From Bacteroidota bacterium (lineage in GTDB: Bacteria; Bacteroidota; Bacteroidia; Bacteroidales; Rikenellaceae), in assembly GCA_015222165.1 (NCBI GenBank), contig JADFUS010000045.1:1-35101 (forward strand): DNA of 35,101 nucleotides, in the 5' to 3' direction. Each line of letters begins with the position of its first letter. The first letter of the stretch is position 1. The notes under the pieces are model-generated. The model made no database searches, had not been told where the DNA came from, and worked only from the letters and a program-made list of their open reading frames with translations. This document shows positions 5,177 through 22,058 of this stretch, one piece after another. A program made the translations under genes and the position numbers.

Positions 5177-6724
<1,548 letters not shown>

Positions 6725-6867
6725 TTATTTTAACTGTACAAAAGTAATAAATAAAGCTAACAAAAAAAACATATCTAAAAATTATTAGTAATAAATAATT
6801 TTTCTATTTTAGGTATATATTATAGGAATATTTATAGCAAAAATAAAAATATTTATTACAAAAGGAT

Positions 6868-6896
6868 TGTTTTATACTAAATATAATTATATTTGT
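6868..6896 (+). promoter_or_regulatory. Promoter of the first GEVED-type lipoprotein
   Basis: TTG (6868-6870), an 18-base gap and an exact TATATTTG -7 box (6889-6896) lie 40 bases before the ATG at 6937. The same TATATTTG box recurs before the paralog (9478-9485). Confidence 0.6.
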
Positions 6897-6936
6897 AATT
6901 AAGTGAATAAACATATTTTTAACTAAATTAAATAAA

Positions 6937-9252
6937 ATGAAGAAATTTTTTAATTATTTAACAATGTCAGTAGCATTGTTAACTATTTTTTCTGGGTGTA
7001 GTAAGAATGAAATTCCAGAACCAATCAAAAAAGAAATTAAGATTGCACTTACTGCAGAGGGTAATAGTGTATTAATGGCGGGAGAAGATACTTCTCGTTC
7101 ATTTACTGTTACATCAGATGAGTCGGTAACTGAAGATCTTGCTATTACTATTGCAACAGATGCAGTAGCAACAGATGCTACGCTTGAAGCAAAAACTATT
7201 ACTATTCTTAAAGGAACAAAAATTGCAACTGGTAAAATTACTTTCTTAGGAAGTGCTTTTCCAATTGGAGGAACAGCTAAAAATATTAAAATAACTATTT
7301 CTGCTCCTAACGTTGAGATAACTGGTGATGCAAATGCTGTTTATGCAGTGACTTGTTCGGCTAAACCTTTAGAAAAATCAACAGCTACTTTAATATGTGA
7401 AACAACAGAGGTGTTTATTTCTGGTTCTGAAGTACGTGTTCCTGTTAAAGTTGTTCTTGATAAAGCTGCGCAACAATATGTGGATTTTAGACTTGTTTAC
7501 GGTGCTAAAAATACAATAGAAAAAGGTTCATGGACTTCAGTTTCTCCAATTTCTATTGAGGAAGGAAGTTCAGAAGTTACTTTTGATATTGTTTTTGCAG
7601 CTGAAAATTTTCCAGCAGGTTTTTCGGGAGTATCTAATTTAAAATTGACATCAGAAGGAGCAATCATTGGAACTCCATCTGAAATTATATTAAATGTTAA
7701 AGGTGTTGAGCCAACTTCTGCAATATTATCTACAGATGGTACAGACGTTGTAGTTGGAGATACTGATACTGAAAAAACTATTACAGTAACTCTAAGTGGA
7801 GAAGCTCGTGCAGACGTTCAATTTGACGTTGCAGTTGAGGGTAAAGAAGGTGATTTTGAAATTGTTGATAATACTATCACAGTTAAAAAAGGAGAAACAA
7901 CAGGAACAGGTGTCATTAAATTTTTACAAAAAGCTTTTCCTATCGAGCTTATGACTGGAACTGCAAAAGTTTCAATAACAACTACAGCTGGTGATATTAC
8001 TCTTGGAGAACCAAATAAATTACTTTTTAATATAAAAGGAATGGGTACTGCTCCTATGGGTACAATTTCTACAGAATTAACTACTATTAAAGTAGGAGCT
8101 GAAGATAAAGTAGTTGAATTTAGTGTTAAAGTTTCAGAAGTTTTAACTAAAGATGCTGTTTTTGCAATTACAGCTACTTCAGATAAAAATGATTCTTTTA
8201 CTTTAGATACAGAGTCTGTTACTATTTCTGCTGGTGCTCTTGAAGCAAAAGGAACAATTACTTTTAAAACTGCATCATTCCCTTATGATACAGATAAAGT
8301 AAATGTAAAAGTTGTTATTGCTTCTGAAGATGTTATAGTTATTAACAGTGCTTCAACATTAGATTTAAAAGTTTCGGGAGAAACAATTAATCCTGATAAA
8401 GAAGATATGAAATATATTTTTGAAACTACAAGTGGAACAATTTATGTTGGTGATGTTAAAACAGAAGCTTCTTTATTTTTTGTAGCAGAAGGAAGAGAGC
8501 CTAAGGCTACAAAAGAACATAATATTTATCCAGAAATTACAGGTGCTGTTGAAGGAATTGATTATGAATGGGTAAGTGAGTTGCCAGTTAAAATTGAAGC
8601 TGGAAATAATTATTCATATATAAAATTTAATATTCTTCCTGCGGGAGCAGATAAAACTTTTAATGTTGAACTTTTCTGTGACGAAGCTACTATTGGTTCT
8701 AGTAATGTTTATACATTAACAACAGAATATGTTGTTTGGCCTCCTGTAACTCGTCAAGCTCCTCGTATTAAAATAGGTACAGCTAATGATAATTATGGAT
8801 TCTGTGTACCAAAAATGGGATTTGGAGATGATCTATATGAATTTACATTTAGTAGAGATGCTTGGTTAGATTTATCAGAAACAAAAACATTTACTTTAAC
8901 AAGTAAAGAAGCTGTGTTAAATTTAAATGCTTTTACTATTGATAAATATTATCAAGAAAGAATGGTTTTATATATGTTCGCAGATTATAATGCTGATGGT
9001 AAATTCGATGGTGAAAATGAAAAAATAGTATCTAAAAAACTTGAAGGTATTGGTATTGGAGCTGAAAATGTTAAAGATTATGCAAATAATTTCACTGTTC
9101 CAGAAGGTGTTAACGAATTTATAGTTCGTATATGTGTTATTTATACTTCAAAAGAAGATTTTTCAGTAGATTTCAAAGATGGATATTTTGTAAATCCAGG
9201 GAATACTTCAATGGCTCACATGGCAGACTTTAAAGTTGTGGTAAGTGAATAA
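6937..9252 (+). CDS. Multi-domain surface lipoprotein with GEVED-type C-terminus, copy 1
   Basis: 771-residue predicted lipoprotein: signal with lipobox FSGC (Cys21) and no positive charge directly after the cysteine. The mature chain is about five tandem beta-sandwich repeats of roughly 105-120 residues (about 34-140, 143-255, 257-368, 370-484, 488-600). Four share a Calx-beta-like signature: a strand, a G-rich turn followed by IxF, FP, then (K)V(K)VxI, and a closing LxxxVxG. The last about 160 residues resemble a GEVED domain, with FADYNADGKFDGENE (a D-x-N-x-D-G loop that could bind calcium) and NFTVPEGVNEFIVRI. Such proteins usually sit on the outer membrane surface in adhesion or glycan contexts; no ligand can be assigned. 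A paralog lacking the first repeat follows 265 bases downstream. Confidence 0.88.
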   Translation: MKKFFNYLTMSVALLTIFSGCSKNEIPEPIKKEIKIALTAEGNSVLMAGEDTSRSFTVTSDESVTEDLAITIATDAVATDATLEAKTITILKGTKIATGKITFLGSAFPIGGTAKNIKITISAPNVEITGDANAVYAVTCSAKPLEKSTATLICETTEVFISGSEVRVPVKVVLDKAAQQYVDFRLVYGAKNTIEKGSWTSVSPISIEEGSSEVTFDIVFAAENFPAGFSGVSNLKLTSEGAIIGTPSEIILNVKGVEPTSAILSTDGTDVVVGDTDTEKTITVTLSGEARADVQFDVAVEGKEGDFEIVDNTITVKKGETTGTGVIKFLQKAFPIELMTGTAKVSITTTAGDITLGEPNKLLFNIKGMGTAPMGTISTELTTIKVGAEDKVVEFSVKVSEVLTKDAVFAITATSDKNDSFTLDTESVTISAGALEAKGTITFKTASFPYDTDKVNVKVVIASEDVIVINSASTLDLKVSGETINPDKEDMKYIFETTSGTIYVGDVKTEASLFFVAEGREPKATKEHNIYPEITGAVEGIDYEWVSELPVKIEAGNNYSYIKFNILPAGADKTFNVELFCDEATIGSSNVYTLTTEYVVWPPVTRQAPRIKIGTANDNYGFCVPKMGFGDDLYEFTFSRDAWLDLSETKTFTLTSKEAVLNLNAFTIDKYYQERMVLYMFADYNADGKFDGENEKIVSKKLEGIGIGAENVKDYANNFTVPEGVNEFIVRICVIYTSKEDFSVDFKDGYFVNPGNTSMAHMADFKVVVSE

Positions 9253-9321
9253 TATATAAATAAAATATTTCATTTAAATTTAGAACCAATACTTTTTTTG
9301 AGTATTGGTTCTTTTTTTATA
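9248..9321 (+). repeat. Duplicated 3' flank, copy 1 (pairs with 11487-11560)
   Basis: The last codons, stop codon, spacer and terminator of this gene recur after the paralog at a constant offset of 2239 bases, with one mismatch that I can see in about 74 bases. The noncoding part is more alike than the coding sequences, so the duplication unit included the terminator. Confidence 0.85.
9282..9318 (+). terminator. Intrinsic terminator after lipoprotein copy 1
   Basis: A 12-bp perfect stem (9282-9293 with 9301-9312), a T-rich 7-base loop and a 7-base T-run. It is identical to the terminator after copy 2. Confidence 0.9.
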
Positions 9322-9477
9322 AAATAATTCTTTATTTATTAATATGTAGTTTTGAATTTATGAAATTAGAGTATAATTTATGGTGATTAGTAATTTATTT
9401 TATGTGTGTTTTTAAGTCTTTTTATGGGACATTGTTAATATTTTTTCATGAGGATATATGATTCATTAAAAAAAGAT

Positions 9478-9485
9478 TATATTTG
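9478..9485 (+). promoter_or_regulatory. -7 box of lipoprotein copy 2
   Basis: An exact TATATTTG lies 32 bases before the ATG at 9518, in a leader resembling that of copy 1 (AATAAA repeats up to ATAAAATG). No good -33 TTG is seen at the right distance, so copy 2 may be expressed more weakly. Confidence 0.45.
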
Positions 9486-9517
9486 TATTTAAATAAATAA
9501 ACTAATATATAAATAAA

Positions 9518-11491
9518 ATGAAAAACTTTTCTAGCTATTTAACGTCGATAATAGTGTTGTTGGTGATAGTTTCTGGTTGTAGTAAAAAGAGTATACCAGA
9601 ACCAAAACCAATTGAAAAATCGACAGCTACTATTATAACTTCTAAAAAGGAAGTATTTATTTCTGGTTCAGAAGTACGTGTACCTGTTAGGGTAGTTCTT
9701 GATAAACAAGCTCAACAACTTATAGAGTTTAAAATTGTTTATGGATCTAAAAATTCAATTGATAAAGGAATTACTTTTTCAATGCTTCCATTAGTTATAA
9801 CTAAAGGAAATTCTAAAGTAGATTTTGATATTATTTTTGATGCAACAAAATTTCAAGTAGGGTTTTCGGGTGTTTCACATTTAGTTTTAACTTCAAATGG
9901 TGCAAATATCGGAGTCCCATTAGAAATAATATTGAATGTTAAAGGTGTATCATCAACTTCTGCAACACTTTCTACAGACGGAACAGATGTAGTTGTTGGA
10001 AAAACAGATTTTGAAAAATCTATTACCGTAACTTTGAATAAAGAAGCTCTTGCAGATGTTAAATTTAATATTTTAGTTGAAGGTAAAGAAGGTGATTATG
10101 AAATTGTTGATAAAATTATAACGGTTAAAAAAGGAGAAAAAAAAGGTATTGGAGTTATTAAATTCTTTCAAAAATCATTTTCAAATGAACTTATGACAGG
10201 AACAGCAAAAATATCAATAACAACTACTGCTGGTGATATAATTCTTGGAGATCCAAATAAGTTGCTTCTTAATATTAAAGGTACTGGTACTGCTCCTATA
10301 GGAACAATATCAATAGAAACATCTGATATAAAAGTGGGTGAAGATGATAAGATAGTTGAATTTTCAGTTAAAATATCGGAAACTTTAACTAAAGATGCAG
10401 TTTTTGCAATTACGGCTACTTCAGATAAAGATGATTTTTTTACTCTTAATACAAAATCTATTACTATAATTTCTGGAACTCTTGAAGCTAAAGGAACTAT
10501 TACTTTTAAAGCTTCTTCTTTTCCATATAGTACAGATAATGAGAATGTTAAAGTTATTATTGCTTCAGAAGATGTTATTATAAATAGTGATTCAACATTA
10601 GATTTAAACATTTCGGGAGAATCTTTAAATCCTAATATAGACGATATGAATTATATTTTTCAATCTGATAAAGGTTTAATGTATGTTGGAACTGAAAAGA
10701 AAGAAGCATCTTTATATTTTGCAGCAGAAAAATTAGGTGATGTTGCGACAAAAGAACATAATATTTATTGTAAAATAACTGGAGGAGTCGAAGGAGTAGA
10801 TTATGAATGGATAACAAAATTCCCTCTTAAAATAGCTATTGGCTCAGATAATTCACATGTTTATTTAAATGTTCTTCCTGCAGGAGCTGGAAAAACTTTT
10901 AAAATTCAACTCTCTTGTGCTGAAGCTACAATAGGCTCAAAGGGTATTTATACATTAACAACAAAATATTTATTATGGCCTCCACTAACTCGTCAAGCCC
11001 CTCGTTTGAGAGAAAGTTATATTTTTAATGATAATGAATTTGCTGTTATTAAAATGGGTTTTGGAGATGATAATTATGAATTTAAGTATCCTTGTTCAGA
11101 TTGGTTAGATTTGTCAGAAATAAAAGAATTTACTTTAGCAAGTAAAGATGCGGTATTAAATATTAGTGCTTTTTCTATTGATACATATCATAAAGAAAAG
11201 ATAGTGTTATTTATGTACGCGGATTATAATGCAGACGGAAAATTTGATGGTGAAAATGAAGAAGTATTTTCTAAAAAACTTGAAAATGTAGGTGTTGGAG
11301 CTGAAAATATTAGAAATTTCGCAAATAATTTTACTGTTCCTGATGGAGTTTCTGAATTTATAGTTCGAGTTTGTGTAACTTCAATTTCAGGAAGTGATTA
11401 TTCAGCTACTTTTGATGATGGTTATTTTGTACTTCCTGAGAGCTTTATTTTGGCTCACATGGCGGACTTTAAAGTTGTTGTTTCTGAATAA
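9518..11491 (+). CDS. Multi-domain surface lipoprotein with GEVED-type C-terminus, copy 2
   Basis: 657-residue paralog of the preceding protein, with lipobox VSGC at Cys21. It matches copy 1 from the second repeat onward (EKSTAT, then EVFISGSEVRVPV) through to the common end AHMADFKVVVSE, so it is about 110 residues shorter because the first beta-sandwich repeat is missing. It has four repeats plus the GEVED-like region with ADYNADGKFDGENE and NFTVPDGVSEFIVRV. The divergence is spread over the whole protein, with the C-terminal region best conserved. No frameshift or premature stop is present, so both copies look functional. The ligand is unknown. glnS starts 118 bases downstream, after the duplicated terminator. 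Confidence 0.88.
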   Translation: MKNFSSYLTSIIVLLVIVSGCSKKSIPEPKPIEKSTATIITSKKEVFISGSEVRVPVRVVLDKQAQQLIEFKIVYGSKNSIDKGITFSMLPLVITKGNSKVDFDIIFDATKFQVGFSGVSHLVLTSNGANIGVPLEIILNVKGVSSTSATLSTDGTDVVVGKTDFEKSITVTLNKEALADVKFNILVEGKEGDYEIVDKIITVKKGEKKGIGVIKFFQKSFSNELMTGTAKISITTTAGDIILGDPNKLLLNIKGTGTAPIGTISIETSDIKVGEDDKIVEFSVKISETLTKDAVFAITATSDKDDFFTLNTKSITIISGTLEAKGTITFKASSFPYSTDNENVKVIIASEDVIINSDSTLDLNISGESLNPNIDDMNYIFQSDKGLMYVGTEKKEASLYFAAEKLGDVATKEHNIYCKITGGVEGVDYEWITKFPLKIAIGSDNSHVYLNVLPAGAGKTFKIQLSCAEATIGSKGIYTLTTKYLLWPPLTRQAPRLRESYIFNDNEFAVIKMGFGDDNYEFKYPCSDWLDLSEIKEFTLASKDAVLNISAFSIDTYHKEKIVLFMYADYNADGKFDGENEEVFSKKLENVGVGAENIRNFANNFTVPDGVSEFIVRVCVTSISGSDYSATFDDGYFVLPESFILAHMADFKVVVSE

Positions 11492-11560
11492 TATATTAAT
11501 AAAATATTTCATTTAAATTTAGAACCAATACTTTTTTTGAGTATTGGTTCTTTTTTTATA
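11487..11560 (+). repeat. Duplicated 3' flank, copy 2 (pairs with 9248-9321)
   Basis: Second copy of the near-identical 3' segment (end of gene, spacer, terminator). Sequence similarity ends right after the T-run, where the glnS promoter begins, which marks the right edge of the duplicated unit. Confidence 0.85.
11521..11557 (+). terminator. Intrinsic terminator after lipoprotein copy 2
   Basis: A 12-bp perfect stem (11521-11532 with 11540-11551) and a 7-base T-run, identical to the terminator at 9282-9318. It separates the lipoprotein pair from glnS. Confidence 0.9.
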
Positions 11561-11562
11561 TA

Positions 11563-11589
11563 TTGTACAGAAAATAATCATTATATTTG
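11563..11589 (+). promoter_or_regulatory. Promoter of glnS
   Basis: TTG (11563-11565), a 16-base gap (somewhat short) and an exact TATATTTG (11582-11589) lie 20 bases before the glnS ATG, directly after the upstream terminator. Confidence 0.55.
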
Positions 11590-11609
11590 CATTTTAATAT
11601 CATATACTT

Positions 11610-13301
11610 ATGGCTGAAAATATATCTAATACTGCCGAAGAATCGGTAAAATCTCTGAATTTCCTTGAGGAGATAATTGAAAACGACATTGAAAATGGTC
11701 TGAAAGAGGTTCATACTCGTTTTCCTCCAGAGCCAAATGGCTATCTCCATATTGGTCATGCAAAGTCTATATGTCTTAATTTTGGACTTGCAAAGAGATA
11801 TAATGGCACATGTAACTTGCGTTTTGATGATACAAATCCTGCTAAAGAAGAGACAGAATATGTCGATTCTATTAAGGAGGACATCAAATGGTTGGGTTTC
11901 AAGTGGAACAAAGAGTGCTACACATCAGATTATTTCCAGCAACTTTATGATTGGGCGGTCGAGCTTATCAAGAAAAATCTTGCTTATGTTGACGATCAAA
12001 CTCAAGAAGAGATAAGAAAAGGTAGAGGAACAGTTATGAATAGTGGAGTTGAAAGTCCATATCGTAATCGTTCGGTTGAAGAAAATATCGACCTTTTAGA
12101 GCGTATGAAAAATGGAGAGTTTGCAGATGGCGAAAAAGTTCTTAGGGCAAAGATAGATATGTCTCACCCAAACATGCTTATGCGTGATCCATTGCTTTAT
12201 CGTATCCTTCATGCAGATCATCATCGTACGGGTAAAAAATGGAGTATATACCCAATGTATGATTATGCGCACGGAGAATCAGATTCTATAGAAAATATAA
12301 CACACTCAATATGCACATTAGAGTTTGATGTACACAGAGCTTTATATGAATGGTTTATTGAGAAATTAAATATATATCCAAGTCATCAATTTGAGTTTGC
12401 ACGTCTTAACATTACTAATACAGTGATGAGTAAACGTAAACTTTTGCAACTTGTTAAAGAAAATCTTGTTATGGGTTGGGACGATCCACGTATGCCGACA
12501 ATTTGTGGGTTACGTCGTAGAGGTTATACTCCTGCTTCAATTCGTACTTTTGCTGAAAAAGTGGGTGTTGCAAAACGTGATAATATAATAGATTTAGGAC
12601 TTTTAGAATTTTGTGTTCGTGAAGATTTAAATCATAGTTCTCAACGTCGTATGGCTGTTCTTGATCCTATAAAAGTGGTAATAACAAATTACCCAGAAGA
12701 TAAAACAGAGATTATTTCATGTATTAATAATCCTCAAGATGAAGAAGCTGGTCACCGTGATATATCTTTTTCTAGAGAGGTTTATATTGACCGTAATGAT
12801 TTTAAAGAAGAGGCTACAAAAAAATATTTCCGTCTTTCTCCAGGTAAAGAAGTTCGTCTTCGTTATTCATACCTTATTAAGTGTGAAGAAGTTATTAAGG
12901 ATTCAGAAGGTAATATTACAGAATTAAGATGTTCTTATGACCCAGAATCTATGGGTGGAAAATCTTCTGATGGACGAAAAGTTAAAGGAATTATTCATTG
13001 GGTAGATGTTAAAACAGCTGGTGAAATTGAAGTACGTTTGTTCGATAGATTGTTTCTTCAAGAAAATCCAGATGAAGCAGAAGAGGGAAAAACTTTTGTT
13101 GACAATATTAATCCTGACTCTTTGACAATTGTTAAAGGTTACGCAGAAAGTTCTCTTTTGAAGGCTAAAATTGGAGAATCTTTTCAATTTGAACGTATAG
13201 GTTATTTTGTTGTAGATAAAGATAGTACAGAAAATAAACAGATTTTCAATCGTACTGTAACACTTAGAGATACTTGGGCTAAGTCCTTAAAGAAAAAATA
13301 A
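11610..13301 (+). CDS. glnS: Glutaminyl-tRNA synthetase
   Basis: 563-residue class Ib synthetase charging tRNA-Gln directly. The HIGH motif is at 47-50 in PPEPNGYLHIGHAKSI, the KMSKS equivalent is VMSKR at 272-276, and RFDDTNPAKE at 71-80 and NMLMRDPLLYRI are typical of GlnRS rather than GluRS. The C-terminal half is the two-barrel anticodon-binding domain (residues about 345-563). Length matches bacterial GlnRS. Its presence means the cell need not rely on the GatCAB amidation route for Gln-tRNA. The gene is a single transcript between the promoter at 11563 and the hairpin at 13321. Confidence 0.98.
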   Translation: MAENISNTAEESVKSLNFLEEIIENDIENGLKEVHTRFPPEPNGYLHIGHAKSICLNFGLAKRYNGTCNLRFDDTNPAKEETEYVDSIKEDIKWLGFKWNKECYTSDYFQQLYDWAVELIKKNLAYVDDQTQEEIRKGRGTVMNSGVESPYRNRSVEENIDLLERMKNGEFADGEKVLRAKIDMSHPNMLMRDPLLYRILHADHHRTGKKWSIYPMYDYAHGESDSIENITHSICTLEFDVHRALYEWFIEKLNIYPSHQFEFARLNITNTVMSKRKLLQLVKENLVMGWDDPRMPTICGLRRRGYTPASIRTFAEKVGVAKRDNIIDLGLLEFCVREDLNHSSQRRMAVLDPIKVVITNYPEDKTEIISCINNPQDEEAGHRDISFSREVYIDRNDFKEEATKKYFRLSPGKEVRLRYSYLIKCEEVIKDSEGNITELRCSYDPESMGGKSSDGRKVKGIIHWVDVKTAGEIEVRLFDRLFLQENPDEAEEGKTFVDNINPDSLTIVKGYAESSLLKAKIGESFQFERIGYFVVDKDSTENKQIFNRTVTLRDTWAKSLKKK

Positions 13302-17282: not shown

Positions 17283-18461
17283 TTAAAATTTTTTAAAGAA
17301 AAATGGTGCACCTTGAGTACTTATCTTTTTCCCTATTACTTTTTTTGTTTTATAATCATATAAATAATATCCAGTTCCTTGTTCTCCAGACATTCCGAAA
17401 ACTACAAAGTCATCATAAATACCTATGCATGCTGACCAGCCCGTTGTAGGTGGTAGATCTAATTTATGGAATGTTTTGTTGTATACATCTAGTTCAAAAG
17501 GTTGCATAGATTTGTCATTAACATAGTCTGGTGGATTACTTGCATTTGCTGGGACATTAAGAAAAGTATAGACTTTACCGTTTTCTACATATGCTTTGTA
17601 ATAGGAAAAGCTTGCAGTATTTTCAGCAATACCTTCAATAAATTGACCTTTTATAGGGAAAAAATAAGATTTGTCAAAATCTGTTTCTCCTTTTTTTATA
17701 CGTAGAAATCCATCATTCTCATCGCTATATCCAAAACAACCAGTACTATAGAAATAAAGATCTTCTTTTTCATCTATAAAAAGTCCTCCTGTTGGACCGT
17801 CACAGCCAACCATTCCTGCTCTGCTATCACTAACCATTTTTATTGGTTTGTCGGTTTTCGTATCTATAATTAAAACGTGTGAGCCTGGATTAGGGTTTAA
17901 TAAAGATTTTGTTTGCCATAGAGCGATGTATAATTCGTTACCACGTATAATAGCACCCATAGGTTCGGGATTATTATCATTTTCACCAATTGCAAATTTA
18001 GACAAATCAATTTCTTTTTCAATAGTCATGTTTGTAGGGTTGAAAACTATTATATTACCTGTTCCTGATGCTGTAATATACCCCTTATTATCGTTATAAA
18101 AAACTATTGAATTTGTTTTAGACTTTGCAGGAAGGATAAGTGTATTTCCAGATTTTTCAAGAGTATTTTTGTTTTTTTTATATTTAAATAACTTATCTGT
18201 AGATTCTTCTAAAACAAAAACATAATCTTTGTATGTATATAGGTATCCAGATTTACTGTGTATTAGTGAATTTGAAGTAGTAGTTTTTTCAACATCTAAA
18301 TCTTTGAAAAGATCAATGTAAGAGTGGTCGTCAATAACAACACTATGTAAACAAGTAGTTGTATTTTCTCTTTTTTCAGAACTTGGGTCGTCTTTGTCAC
18401 AAGCAGATACAAAAATGGATATTGTAGCTAAACTCATTAATAGAAATTCTTTAGTTTTCAT
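17283..18461 (-). CDS. DUF4374 (XusB-like) surface lipoprotein
   Basis: 392-residue lipoprotein with lipobox VSAC (Cys21) followed by the acidic DKDDP, a sequence type that favours surface export in Bacteroidota. The rest consists of repeated beta-strand blades (GYITASGTGNIIVFNPTN, PMGAIIRGNELYIALW, GSHVLIIDTKTDKPI, KVYTFLNVPAN, DDFVVFGMSGEQGTGYYLYD), fitting a beta-propeller and the DUF4374 family. Bacteroides XusB, a siderophore-binding lipoprotein working with TonB receptor XusA, belongs to this type as far as I recall. The gene begins 25 bases after the TonB receptor gene and is surely cotranscribed. Likely role: capturing ferric siderophore at the cell surface and passing it to the receptor. 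The ligand is not shown by the sequence. Confidence 0.8.
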   Translation of the reverse strand: MKTKEFLLMSLATISIFVSACDKDDPSSEKRENTTTCLHSVVIDDHSYIDLFKDLDVEKTTTSNSLIHSKSGYLYTYKDYVFVLEESTDKLFKYKKNKNTLEKSGNTLILPAKSKTNSIVFYNDNKGYITASGTGNIIVFNPTNMTIEKEIDLSKFAIGENDNNPEPMGAIIRGNELYIALWQTKSLLNPNPGSHVLIIDTKTDKPIKMVSDSRAGMVGCDGPTGGLFIDEKEDLYFYSTGCFGYSDENDGFLRIKKGETDFDKSYFFPIKGQFIEGIAENTASFSYYKAYVENGKVYTFLNVPANASNPPDYVNDKSMQPFELDVYNKTFHKLDLPPTTGWSACIGIYDDFVVFGMSGEQGTGYYLYDYKTKKVIGKKISTQGAPFFFKKF

Positions 18462-18486
18462 GTTTTTATATTTATAATTTTATTAT

Positions 18487-20967
18487 TTACAATTGCATAG
18501 CACCTCTTTCCGATTTATCTCTAAACCAGTTATATCGAAGTTTTATACTGAAAGTTCTTCCTGGTAAAGGCATTTTATAATCGTTATAAATTGTCGCATT
18601 AAAAATATTATTAACAGCAAGACATAGAGACATTTCGTTTTTTAAAAATGATTGTTGTATCCCTATAGAATAATTATGATATGCAGGAATAGTCCATTTT
18701 GTTTTTTGGCTTTTTTGGGAAGTTAATTTCCATGCGTTACAGTATTCTCCTACGTATGAAGCGTCTACATATATTCGAGAAAGTTCATCTTTTATAGGCC
18801 AATTGCTACGGTGATATTCTAAACCATAATTATAATAAAATGAAGGAGTGTTGGGGATATCTAATTTATAAGTTGGGTTTTCCACTTTCTTATCTTTAGT
18901 TTTCCATTTTAAATTATCTCGTAAAGATTGGAAGGTAACATTAAAATAGACATACCAATTTCGAGTAATATCTATTTTTAAATCTAAATCGACACCATAA
19001 ATTTTTGTTTTTCCTAAATTAGAATATGCTAAACGTGTATCTGCAGGAACTAACCTTATAAGATTAGAAGTGTTCATATAAAACCCGTTTACTTCGGCTT
19101 GTACGCGTGTTAATCCTAAAAAATCTGTCTTGTCGAATAATAATCCTAAATTGACATTGTCACTTTTTTCGGGTTTTAGATTTGTAGATGATTTAATATT
19201 AATACCATCGCCAAATAGTTCTTCAGGGTCAGGAAGACGTAGAGTATGTTCAAAAGATGTTTTTATTCTTAATCCTTTGATTAACTTATAGCTAAAACCT
19301 TCATTATAGCCAAAATACAAATCGTTATTCGTTGTTTGATCGGGTGTTTTTTTGACGCAGGTATCTTTGTATTTCTTATCTTCTGTACGATATACCTGAG
19401 AATTTAGATAGTATGTTTTTAGAGCTAAAGTGTTTTGAAAACGTTTGTTTTTACTAAAAAATGAGTAAGTAAATCCAGTTATATTTCCTGTCATTTTACT
19501 TGGGAAACCACTTGGATCGAAGCCTATATATTCCTTTATATAATCATCTTTAGGAGTTTTTTTAGAAAAAACAAATTGATTATTTAGATTTAAATAATGA
19601 TTTTCGTTTATTTTGTATTTAAGATTTATTTTACCTCTTAACTCTCTTGTCCAATCATCTGATAGATTAAATATATGATCTAACGTTTCTCCTTGGCTTG
19701 GAGATATTTTTCCTGTCCATTGATGGAAATTTCCTACAGTATCTACTAAATGTGTATTTACCATTGCATAAACCATAGATGCTTTAAAATCAAGACCTTT
19801 TAGAAAAAAATTTTCTTTTTCTAACTTTATGTTAGGCATTAAGTTAGTACCATGACTGTGTGAGTAGCGAGAATCAAAAGAGATATCTTGTAGCTCTTTA
19901 TAGTTTTCATAACCAGTAAATTCAAGTTCAATTTTATCAAACCAGAGTTTAGTAAATGTTAAAGAGCCATTAAGAATAGAAGAGTGATATTTATCATTAT
20001 TTCTGATTACATGGGAGTATGGTTCTATTGGATAATCTGGATCGAAGGCTCTTAAATCCATAGAGTAATTATTATTTGCTCTGTTATGTAAAAAAGCTAA
20101 ACTCATCTGTATACCAGGTTTTTCAAATAATTTTTTCCCACTTCCTATAAATCTAAAGTTTCCGTATGATCCAATTTCTGCAATAGCACTAATCATATCG
20201 CAATTCACTTCTCTTGTTACAATATTTATAGCACCACCTAAGCCATCGCCTCCATATTCTGCGGGAACGATTCCTTTATAAATTTCTATTCGTTCTATAA
20301 CATCAACAGGTAAATCATTTATATCAAAAGAGCCGTCTGGGCTGTTTAGGGCGAAACCATCAATAAAAATTGCAACTCTTTTTCCTTCTAATCCATGAAC
20401 AGAAACACGACTTTTTCCTCCTAAACCTCCTTCTCTACGTATGGTTAGTCCAGATGCTCTGCTTAAGATTTCTCCAATTCCTGAAGATCTACCCATCATT
20501 TTTTTTCCGTTGATAACAGAAACAGCCATAGGGCTTTCCTTAATCTCTTTAATGATTTTTTCGTTTTCCCTTTTTCCATTAATAACAACATCATTTAATG
20601 AAAAAGCATTCTCTTTCATTTTAAAATTTTTTGTTACAGATTCTTTTTCTAAGGTTATATCTGTTGTTACTTTTTTATAACCTATATATGATAAAACAAG
20701 AGTATATTTACCAGGGGAAGTTTTTATAGAATATGCACCTTTCTCATTAGTTATTGCACCTTTTTGGCTTCCATTTATACATATATATGCTCCGATTAGA
20801 GGTTTGTTAGTTTTTTTATTTGTAATGATACCTGAAATAGTTGAGTTGCTTATTGGTGCTTGTTGAGCGTAGCTTAAGGAGCTAATTATGATTAATAAAA
20901 CTAAGAAATAGAATTTTTTAGCTTTAAAAATACCTATTTTAAGTGATTGATAAATATTTTTTATCAT
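18487..20967 (-). CDS. TonB-dependent outer-membrane receptor (XusA-like)
   Basis: 826-residue TonB-dependent receptor. A signal peptide ends near SYAQQ (about residue 36). An N-terminal carboxypeptidase-regulatory-like domain follows (about 43-118: ISGIITNKKTNKPLIGAYI, GAYSIKTSPGKYTLVLSYIGYK), then the plug domain (about 125-255: SPMAVSVINGKKM, SGIGEILSRASGLTIRREGG, VHGLEGKRVAIFIDGF, ERIEIYKGIVPAEYGGDGLGGAINIVTRE), then a 22-strand barrel. It is TonB/ExbBD powered. It has no SusD partner, and pairs with a DUF4374 lipoprotein and a divergent PchR-type regulator, which points to iron or siderophore uptake rather than glycan uptake. A -7 box (complement of 20993-21000, TACTTTTG) lies 25 bases upstream. 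Confidence 0.93.
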   Translation of the reverse strand: MIKNIYQSLKIGIFKAKKFYFLVLLIIISSLSYAQQAPISNSTISGIITNKKTNKPLIGAYICINGSQKGAITNEKGAYSIKTSPGKYTLVLSYIGYKKVTTDITLEKESVTKNFKMKENAFSLNDVVINGKRENEKIIKEIKESPMAVSVINGKKMMGRSSGIGEILSRASGLTIRREGGLGGKSRVSVHGLEGKRVAIFIDGFALNSPDGSFDINDLPVDVIERIEIYKGIVPAEYGGDGLGGAINIVTREVNCDMISAIAEIGSYGNFRFIGSGKKLFEKPGIQMSLAFLHNRANNNYSMDLRAFDPDYPIEPYSHVIRNNDKYHSSILNGSLTFTKLWFDKIELEFTGYENYKELQDISFDSRYSHSHGTNLMPNIKLEKENFFLKGLDFKASMVYAMVNTHLVDTVGNFHQWTGKISPSQGETLDHIFNLSDDWTRELRGKINLKYKINENHYLNLNNQFVFSKKTPKDDYIKEYIGFDPSGFPSKMTGNITGFTYSFFSKNKRFQNTLALKTYYLNSQVYRTEDKKYKDTCVKKTPDQTTNNDLYFGYNEGFSYKLIKGLRIKTSFEHTLRLPDPEELFGDGINIKSSTNLKPEKSDNVNLGLLFDKTDFLGLTRVQAEVNGFYMNTSNLIRLVPADTRLAYSNLGKTKIYGVDLDLKIDITRNWYVYFNVTFQSLRDNLKWKTKDKKVENPTYKLDIPNTPSFYYNYGLEYHRSNWPIKDELSRIYVDASYVGEYCNAWKLTSQKSQKTKWTIPAYHNYSIGIQQSFLKNEMSLCLAVNNIFNATIYNDYKMPLPGRTFSIKLRYNWFRDKSERGAMQL

Positions 20968-20992
20968 TGTATTTTTGTTTAAAATTATAGTG

Positions 20993-21000
20993 CAAAAGTA
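20993..21000 (-). promoter_or_regulatory. -7 box of the TonB receptor operon
   Basis: The complement reads TACTTTTG, an exact TAnnTTTG, 25 bases before the receptor ATG. No good -33 TTG is present, which fits a promoter that needs the adjacent AraC-type activator. The 95-base divergent region would hold its operator. Confidence 0.5.
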
Positions 21001-21062
21001 TATGTTTTGCCTTGTTTCGGCTTACCTGAAAAGGAGTAAAATTTTAATATGAGGTATTTAAT

Positions 21063-22058
21063 ATGAAAGTTAAATTATTAAGAAACGATTTAAAAGAGAT
21101 AATAGAGGAATATTCTATTCATAATTTTTCAATGGGAAGTGGAATAGAGGAAAATATATTATCTTTTGATAATGACTATGGAAAATCAACAACAAGAGAG
21201 TTGATGTCTCAGAATTTTTGTATAACCGAATCTAATATTCAATGTTATAAAGATTGTGAATTGTATTCTGAATTTGAATGCAGTAAAATAATTTTATTTA
21301 GTGCTATTTTGCGTGGAAATATTAATAGTAGTTATTTTAAAGAAGAAAATTGGGTGGCAGGTAGTGCGAATATGTTCTCTATAAAAGATGGAATAAAAAA
21401 TTATTATTCTTTTAAAAAAGATAATTTAGTTAAGACTATTGATTTTAGGTTGTCTCTAGAGTATATGGAGCGTATAGCAAGTTGGTATCCTGAGTTATTT
21501 GAGAATATAGTTAGTTGTTTTAGAAAAAATAATTCATTTAAAGTTTTTTCTAAAAATATAATGTTGTGTCCTGAGATATTAAGAGTTTTGAATAATATTT
21601 TTGATTATAAAGTTGATGGTAATTCAGCTGTTATGTTTTTAGATTCAAAAATATTGGAAGTATTATCTTTGATGGTATGTAAAACAAAAAATATATATTG
21701 TGGTTCGTGTTATTCGGCAAAGGATAGTGATATGTTTTGTTATGGTAAAAATATTGTTGAAGAACAATATAAAAATCCACCATCATTACATCAATTGGCG
21801 TTAATGATGGGTACAAATGTATGTAAGCTTAAAACGGGATTTAAAGAGTTATTTGGTAAGACTGTTTTTGAATATCTTTTTGATTATCGTATGGAATTAG
21901 CTTGTAAGTATTTGTTAGATAGCTCTTATTCTATTCAAGAAGTTGCAGATAGTATAGGATATGAATATCACTCTCATTTTTCTACGGCATTTAAAAGAAA
22001 ATATGGACTTTCTCCATTAGAATATCGTAATTCTATTAAACAAGAGAGAAAGAAGTAG
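21063..22058 (+). CDS. AraC/PchR-type transcriptional regulator
   Basis: 331-residue AraC-family regulator. The C-terminal DNA-binding domain (about 237-325) has two helix-turn-helix units: SLHQLALMMGTNVCKLKTGFKELFG and SIQEVADSIGYEYHSHFSTAFKRKYG, ending in the family-typical LSPLEYR. The first unit resembles PchR-like regulators, which sense ferric siderophore and activate receptor genes. The N-terminal about 230 residues are a divergent sensor region without a recognisable cupin motif and rich in Cys. It is divergent from the TonB receptor operon across 95 bases, so it probably activates that operon when its ligand or iron state changes. The ATG at 21063 gives MKVKLLRNDL, a plausible start. 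Confidence 0.88.
   Translation: MKVKLLRNDLKEIIEEYSIHNFSMGSGIEENILSFDNDYGKSTTRELMSQNFCITESNIQCYKDCELYSEFECSKIILFSAILRGNINSSYFKEENWVAGSANMFSIKDGIKNYYSFKKDNLVKTIDFRLSLEYMERIASWYPELFENIVSCFRKNNSFKVFSKNIMLCPEILRVLNNIFDYKVDGNSAVMFLDSKILEVLSLMVCKTKNIYCGSCYSAKDSDMFCYGKNIVEEQYKNPPSLHQLALMMGTNVCKLKTGFKELFGKTVFEYLFDYRMELACKYLLDSSYSIQEVADSIGYEYHSHFSTAFKRKYGLSPLEYRNSIKQERKK

Follow-up and report, generated by a model that had tools for sequence, protein, structure and literature searches.

Tandem Modular Lipoprotein Genes in a Probable Rikenellaceae Genome Pair Diverged Coding Regions with a Nearly Unchanged 3' End

Two adjacent lipoprotein genes in a Bacteroidota contig raise the question of how the non-coding 3' ends of paralogs can be nearly identical when the coding regions have diverged. 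The window, by which we mean the whole 35,101-nucleotide stretch analysed, is contig C27 of a binned genome of 61 contigs and 1,196,223 bases that is 57.9% complete. Because its GlnRS is closest to Rikenellaceae bins (best match at 74% identity, with Rikenellaceae, Rikenella, Alistipes, or Tidjanibacter in the titles of 20 of the best 21 matches listed), the host is probably a member of the Rikenellaceae. The pair lies on the + strand between genes that we take, from their translations, to be thiC (- strand) and glnS (+ strand); both ORFs are complete and adjacent, separated by 265 bp. By tblastn (1e-3), ThiC, TyrRS, the EamA-like and NirC-like proteins, GroEL, and either lipoprotein were absent from the 80 glnS loci listed, several of which were fetched as stretches short on one side. 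Elsewhere in the window, a beta-propeller-like lipoprotein, a TonB-dependent receptor, and a divergent AraC-type regulator (names read from translations) adjoin at positions 17283-22058.

Both proteins begin with a hydrophobic stretch followed by SGC at residues 19-21, a lipobox pattern read by eye, and continue with repeats of approximately 115 aa, D1-D5 in copy 1 and D2-D5 in copy 2, before a GEVED-like stretch within the last 170 residues (Table 1). From this pattern we infer that both copies are lipidated and would reside at the outer membrane, exposed on the surface. From the lipobox cysteine onward, copy 1 reads C-S-K-N-E and copy 2 reads C-S-K-K-S; neither matches C-X-K-(D/E)2-X, the optimum surface-export signal in Capnocytophaga canimorsus (PMC5080379). 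Other genera use other signals. Each of D2-D5 is 56-76% identical to the same-numbered repeat of the other copy and 12-25% identical to the pair's other repeats, in keeping with the preliminary description of two tandem genes with the same domain order. D1 has no counterpart in copy 2 and shares 13-29% identity with the pair's remaining repeats.

Table 1. Positions of the features of the lipoprotein gene pair in the window.
Feature	Positions	Strand	Basis or remark
Copy 1 lipoprotein gene, 771 aa, signal, D1-D5, and GEVED-like C-terminal region	6937..9252	+	
Extra repeat D1 region, residues 30-142, copy 1 only	7024..7362	+	in-frame 339-bp gap in copy 2
Copy 1 repeat D2	7366..7710	+	repeat alignment
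Copy 1 repeat D3, predicted Calx-beta-like	7711..8058	+	domain with predicted structure
Copy 1 repeat D4	8059..8394	+	repeat alignment
Copy 1 repeat D5, divergent	8401..8736	+	repeat alignment
Copy 1 GEVED-like stretch	8968..9153	+	profile search
Copy 1 3' block: last 7 CDS bases including stop, 29-nt AT-rich leader, intrinsic terminator	9246..9321	+	
Terminator stem-loop 1: 13-bp stem, 5-nt loop, then T tract	9282..9312	+	
Copy 2 lipoprotein gene, 657 aa, without D1	9518..11491	+	
Copy 2 repeat D2	9605..9952	+	repeat alignment
Copy 2 repeat D3	9953..10303	+	repeat alignment
Copy 2 repeat D4	10304..10627	+	repeat alignment
Copy 2 repeat D5	10640..10978	+	repeat alignment
Copy 2 GEVED-like stretch	11207..11410	+	profile search
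Copy 2 3' block, 75/76 bases identical to copy 1 block	11485..11560	+	
Terminator stem-loop 2, sequence identical to stem-loop 1	11521..11551	+	
Copy 1 5' flank and signal region, 70.7% like 9437-9605 (ordinary divergence)	6848..7024	+	
Copy 2 5' flank and signal region	9437..9605	+	

The two proteins share 66% amino acid identity, and their coding regions are 75.1% identical over 657 aligned codons, with a dS of 0.61 and a dN of 0.235. Along the genes dS varies from 0.28 to 0.94 (sixteen 40-codon windows and the last of 17), dN/dS by domain lies between 0.24 (in D3) and 0.50 (in the C-terminal region) and gives no hint of positive selection, and 82 of 206 four-fold sites (40%) differ. Within the aligned CDS, no 74-nt window exceeds 65 matches and no identical run is longer than 21 bases; no tract of recent conversion or exchange was found along these coding parts, and therefore the exchange, if any, hit the 3' end only. 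Residues 30-142 of copy 1 are missing from copy 2 in a single in-frame gap at a domain boundary, which bears out the earlier claim of one more N-terminal repeat in copy 1; the only other gap, further on, is of one residue. D1 scores best against P2_D4 (39 bits) and c33a_D1 (38 bits), and the domain tree, in which one of 14 forks is well supported, does not decide between gain of D1 in copy 1 and its loss from copy 2. Shared domain order, overall identity, and a common 3' block support the conclusion that the genes are tandem paralogs that arose by duplication of a gene together with its terminator, as had been suggested.

An AlphaFold2 model of D3, computed with nine repeats as the alignment, gave a confident sandwich (mean pLDDT 92.6); the full-length model (mean pLDDT 35.6) is too poor for use. 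Foldseek ranked NCX and CALX Calx-beta chains first, and the best 11 structural matches listed are CALX/NCX chains with Z of 11.2-12.5, 3ead_B (CALX CBD1) aligning in VIA-align with Z 12.5 and an rmsd of 2.3 A over 110 residues. The N-terminal domain of Bacteroides BT_3987 (6t8l_A) gave Z 11.1 over 115 residues at 3.2 A, and the predicted D3 superposes over nearly its whole length on this domain and on Calx-beta domains, including those of NCX/CALX CBD1 and integrin beta4. Sequence identity to the best 20 structural matches listed is, however, low (11-18%), and neither copy matches the Calx-beta Pfam family at E <=1, a search in which HMMER filters drop most weak matches; the repeat profile likewise found nothing among PDB sequences at E <=1. 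The Calx-beta-like fold is hence seen through structure and not through the sequence libraries alone. D3 is accordingly presented as a predicted Calx-beta-like sandwich, consistent with the beta-sandwich likeness first proposed, and the other repeats are assigned by alignment alone.

The assignment of the C-terminal region to the GEVED family (PF20009) is borderline. Searches of the whole proteins with hmmscan gave 17.9 and 21.5 bits against a curated cut-off of 24.4; in the genome search copy 1 scored 23.3 bits, below the cut-off, and copy 2 scored 24.9 bits, above it. The letters GEVED, a motif reported for more than 88% of the family sequences studied (PMC10952558), are absent by eye from both proteins, whose C-terminal ends are HMADFKVVVSE. 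NCBIfam yielded five matches for copy 2, all far under their cut-offs. In CshA-type adhesins, the same study places a ligand-binding CshA_NR2 domain upstream of GEVED (PMC10952558); CshA_NR2 gave no Pfam match in either copy at E <=1 by sequence search. CshA-type fibrillar adhesins resemble the pair in being modular proteins, prone to domain shuffling, in which a GEVED-like stretch accompanies serial stalk-type repeats, whereas the pair differs in its lipoprotein-type N terminus, the position of its GEVED-like region near the C-terminal end, and its borderline GEVED score (PMC10952558). For lipid-anchored stalks of beta sandwiches with a GEVED-like end, the likeliest role is binding to an extracellular surface or polymer. 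A variable surface antigen or adhesin, as proposed in the preliminary description, is a candidate identity for the pair.

Contig C33 of this genome carries two further repeat-bearing genes, one of them truncated at the contig end, and others lie on C25 and C52; the pair's other matches within the genome reach 28-30% identity versus 66% within the pair, so that the excess similarity of the two copies over other family members was confirmed. The cut C33 gene (L018 1-567) and the C25 gene (L004 1474-3501) have a signal and first repeat in common at 87% aa identity; their N-terminal DNA is 84% identical over 503 columns and then unlike, the C25 gene continuing, by reading, with an Ig-like stretch and leucine-rich-type repeats. 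These two genes, one of them incomplete, are evidence of module reshuffling in the window's genome. No silent or partial donor copies were seen in the 57.9%-complete genome. Direct repeats of other kinds also occur: a tandem 268-column repeat, 90% identical, upstream of the C25 lipoprotein gene (L019 1134-1398 and 1423-1688), a tandem 265-column repeat, 88% identical, directly after an ORF on C12 (L143 493-754 and 762-1023) with no Rfam match at gathering scores, and two cobalamin riboswitches 2.5 kb apart on C4 (L135 5091-5289 and 7558-7778) that are 85% identical over 182 columns.

Beyond this genome, the search for the same pair or for extra copies in related genomes, as raised in the preliminary description, came back empty: the pair profile matched none of 392 other genomes of the order at 1e-8. 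None of 100 other relatives matched the copy 1 protein (P0001) at E <=1e-6, the repeat profile went unmatched across 119 further family genomes at 1e-5 and gave only two weak matches (E 2.1e-6 and 7.0e-6) among the 392 of the order, and GEVED was absent from 60 other family genomes at 0.001; the initial screening step of these searches could miss distant relatives. Two short peptide probes applied to named genomes returned 148 stretches that matched one peptide, none of which encodes a relative. A mobile origin was considered and rejected, as P0001 had no protein match in plasmids, phages, or viral contigs. The pair is a set of lineage-restricted modular lipoproteins of a known kind, and its odd feature is the nearly unchanged 3' end.

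Base-by-base alignment of 9248-9321 with 11487-11560 (offset 2239) gives 73 matches in 74 positions, as first noted for the sequence around stop codon and terminator, and the full matching block, 9246-9321 versus 11485-11560, spans 76 nt with a sole mismatch at 9258. Of the 69 non-coding positions that follow each stop codon and close with the T tract, 68 are the same in both copies, compared with the divergence of the coding regions given above. Mismatches resume at 9245, two codons before the stop, and at 9322, directly after the T tract, and the identical stretch 9259-9321 covers 63 bases. The terminator hairpins fold strongly (z -5.0 and -5.4), and the loop and unstructured leader are also unchanged between the copies. 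The 5' flank and signal region of the pair are, unlike the 3' block, only 70.7% alike. At most one difference in 69 sites would arise with a probability of approximately 3e-14 under the four-fold rate and 6e-8 under that of the whole CDS; assumed rates of 10% and 5% give 0.006 and 0.13, respectively.

A general terminator element, the alternative named in the preliminary description, was rejected for the available part of the genome: full matches to the 3' block occur only at these two genes, the next best match being 21 bases. Of 294 further genomes in the order, 25 gave matches at E <=0.001; the 28 matches listed are all partial (23 to 71 bases at 74-96% identity) and consist in large part of AT-rich query sequence. 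An exact stem with a free 7-base loop was not found in viral contigs. Rfam has no family at the 3' block, and its single match in 6700-11700 at E <=1, to a microRNA model, lies inside the CDS and far under the gathering score.

To place this likeness in context, tandem same-strand paralogs were sought among 986 ORFs of at least 120 aa in 105 stretches totaling 1,327,734 bases (the window, 24 stretches of its genome, and 80 glnS loci of other genomes), requiring BLASTP E <=1e-15, a distance within 6 kb, at least 60% of the shorter ORF aligned, and a 60-base 3' flank. Eight pairs passed, the window pair included. In two of them the 3' flanks scored above all 100 shuffles, namely the window pair (66.5 versus a shuffle maximum of 16) and a pair in L086 (34.5 versus 9); the 3' flanks of the remaining six are no more alike than shuffles. 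In three of the six (L148, window 31563/34019, and L095) the following gene begins within 4, 18, and 78 bases, respectively, which makes the flank partly coding and the control weak; C8 (L139), C3 (L037), and L106 leave room for a terminator. The C3 and C8 lipoprotein pairs, both from the window's genome, carry unrelated terminators at 277/441 identical aa and 73.5% nt identity (C3) and at 60% aa (BLASTP) and 72.6% nt identity (C8), and other lipoprotein genes of this genome have different terminator hairpins. The 3' block looks younger than the genes because 68 of 69 positions match, the block is restricted to the pair in the 57.9%-complete genome, and six of the seven other tandem pairs lack alike 3' flanks.

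The L086 genes, at 10595-12403 on the - strand of a Bacteroidales bin, are two large tandem surface-type genes, 32% alike by BLASTP, with a similar C-terminal coding end and a similar 3' flank containing GTAGAGACG palindromes and a terminator. The window is thus not the sole place where dissimilar tandem surface genes have 3' ends that resemble each other; the L086 likeness is lower than that of the window pair and takes in coding sequence. Within 288,538 bases of the window's genome (24% of it), a non-coding direct repeat after the stops of two different genes was found, besides the window, only on C3, and terminator-flanked cassettes as a genome-wide feature were rejected, C3 being the only such locus in these bases, which include the window. 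There (L037 1850-1941 and 3409-3501), 93 columns of hairpin-bearing 3' flank are 80.6% identical after unrelated genes, by reading a UvrD-type helicase and a GEVED-like lipoprotein, as if the lipoprotein gene lay between two copies of one intergenic segment.

The leading explanation, to which we give an even chance of being correct, is duplication, coding drift, and repeat change, followed by late local recombination of the 3' end. A lipoprotein gene and its terminator would have been duplicated in tandem in a Bacteroidales host with a small family of modular proteins, each copy being an outer-membrane lipoprotein with a lipidated cysteine, a stalk of five or four Calx-beta-like sandwiches, and, toward the C terminus, a GEVED-like region with a possible contact to ligand or matrix. 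Thereafter the coding parts would have drifted (dS ~0.6), with copy 2 losing or copy 1 gaining one N-terminal repeat, and, much later, gene conversion or template switching at the hairpin would have copied approximately 76 bp, comprising stop codon and terminator, between the copies. We infer this late event from the near-identity of the 69 non-coding positions against 40% change at four-fold sites, from the restriction of the block to the pair in the 57.9%-complete genome with a 5' flank of ordinary divergence, and from the unrelated terminators of the C3 and C8 pairs, whose CDS divergence is similar. The unchanged loop and unstructured leader, which go beyond what base pairing alone requires, and the module reshuffling of the C33 and C25 genes favor it as well. 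Against it, the likeness sets in two codons ahead of the stop, near where constraint on a 3' UTR would also place its left limit; one difference in 69 is unremarkable if 5% change is expected; the coding segments lack a recent conversion tract, and a donor set was not found in the available genome; and the identical runs left of the block (13 and 14 bases) suit RecA-type exchange poorly.

A possible but rather unlikely alternative is purifying selection on the transcript tail of both genes, which could, for instance, yield a small RNA from the 3' UTR, stabilize the transcript, or hold a binding site. In reaching from approximately the stop codon through the T tract, the block has the limits expected of a functional 3' UTR, the hairpin is strong, and at the assumed 5% rate the likeness is unsurprising. 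However, the block matches no Rfam family, the observed difference becomes improbable already at a rate of 10%, and the genome's other lipoprotein genes use different terminators; the two cobalamin riboswitches of the same genome, a pair of unfixed age, retain only the 85% identity noted above.

Improbable in our estimation is a recent tandem duplication after which a divergent allele of a different strain or species took the place of the 5' flank and coding part of one copy, the terminator being kept. Such a replacement would account for a near-identical tail next to divergence across the whole gene and 5' flank, and surface-protein genes are often exchanged whole. No donor allele was found, however, in the 100 relatives, the 392 genomes of the order, or the named genomes probed with two peptides, searches that are blind to a donor from the same species.

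We consider it very improbable that the adjacency is an assembly effect, in which two strains or loci were joined through the identical stretch 9259-9321, given that base 9258 and the right flanks differ, both genes are intact, the surroundings are sensible, and such a join would anyway need both block copies to exist, even though the bin is fragmented and incomplete and 63 bases is of the order of short-read k-mers.

Returning to local recombination, the nearest parallels come from antigenic variation systems that operate by gene conversion, of which a conserved element beside divergent gene copies is a trait; this trait is present here as the 3' block. In Borrelia hermsii, approximately 60 silent genes feed one expression site, and the downstream element, with a homology sequence of 214 bp, contains a 31-bp inverted repeat needed for switching (PMC6011951). 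Like that element, the 3' block is a shared non-coding inverted repeat downstream of divergent surface-lipoprotein genes; unlike it, the window pair consists of two intact genes, with no donor in the 57.9%-complete genome and a block of 76 bp versus 214 (PMC6011951). The neisserial Sma/Cla repeat, 66 bp long, terminates pilE and is also present at pilS loci (PMC4023411). By description it resembles the 3' block as a short element at the end of a surface gene, a variable one in Neisseria (PMC4023411), but no pilS-like partial copies were found in the available genome of the window. These parallels are resemblance, not membership: neither donors nor switching were seen in this one genome. That the hairpin-bearing block of a gut-type Bacteroidales acts as a recombination handle through which whole lipoprotein genes would be swapped at the locus, like the relapsing-fever Borrelia element, is a conjecture we hold to be highly improbable. 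Among the papers listed on gene conversion, paralogs, terminators, and untranslated regions, none concerned bacterial 3' UTRs to judge from titles and the beginnings of abstracts, and we do not claim that homogenization of this kind is new to the literature.

The window pair is a single case from one genome. Tandem surface genes with an exact 3' end and divergent coding parts mark places where recombination may still act. If the block is a crossover site, commensal Bacteroidales would have in it a simple way to diversify their surface; if it is constrained, surface genes would seem to share a regulatory RNA tail.
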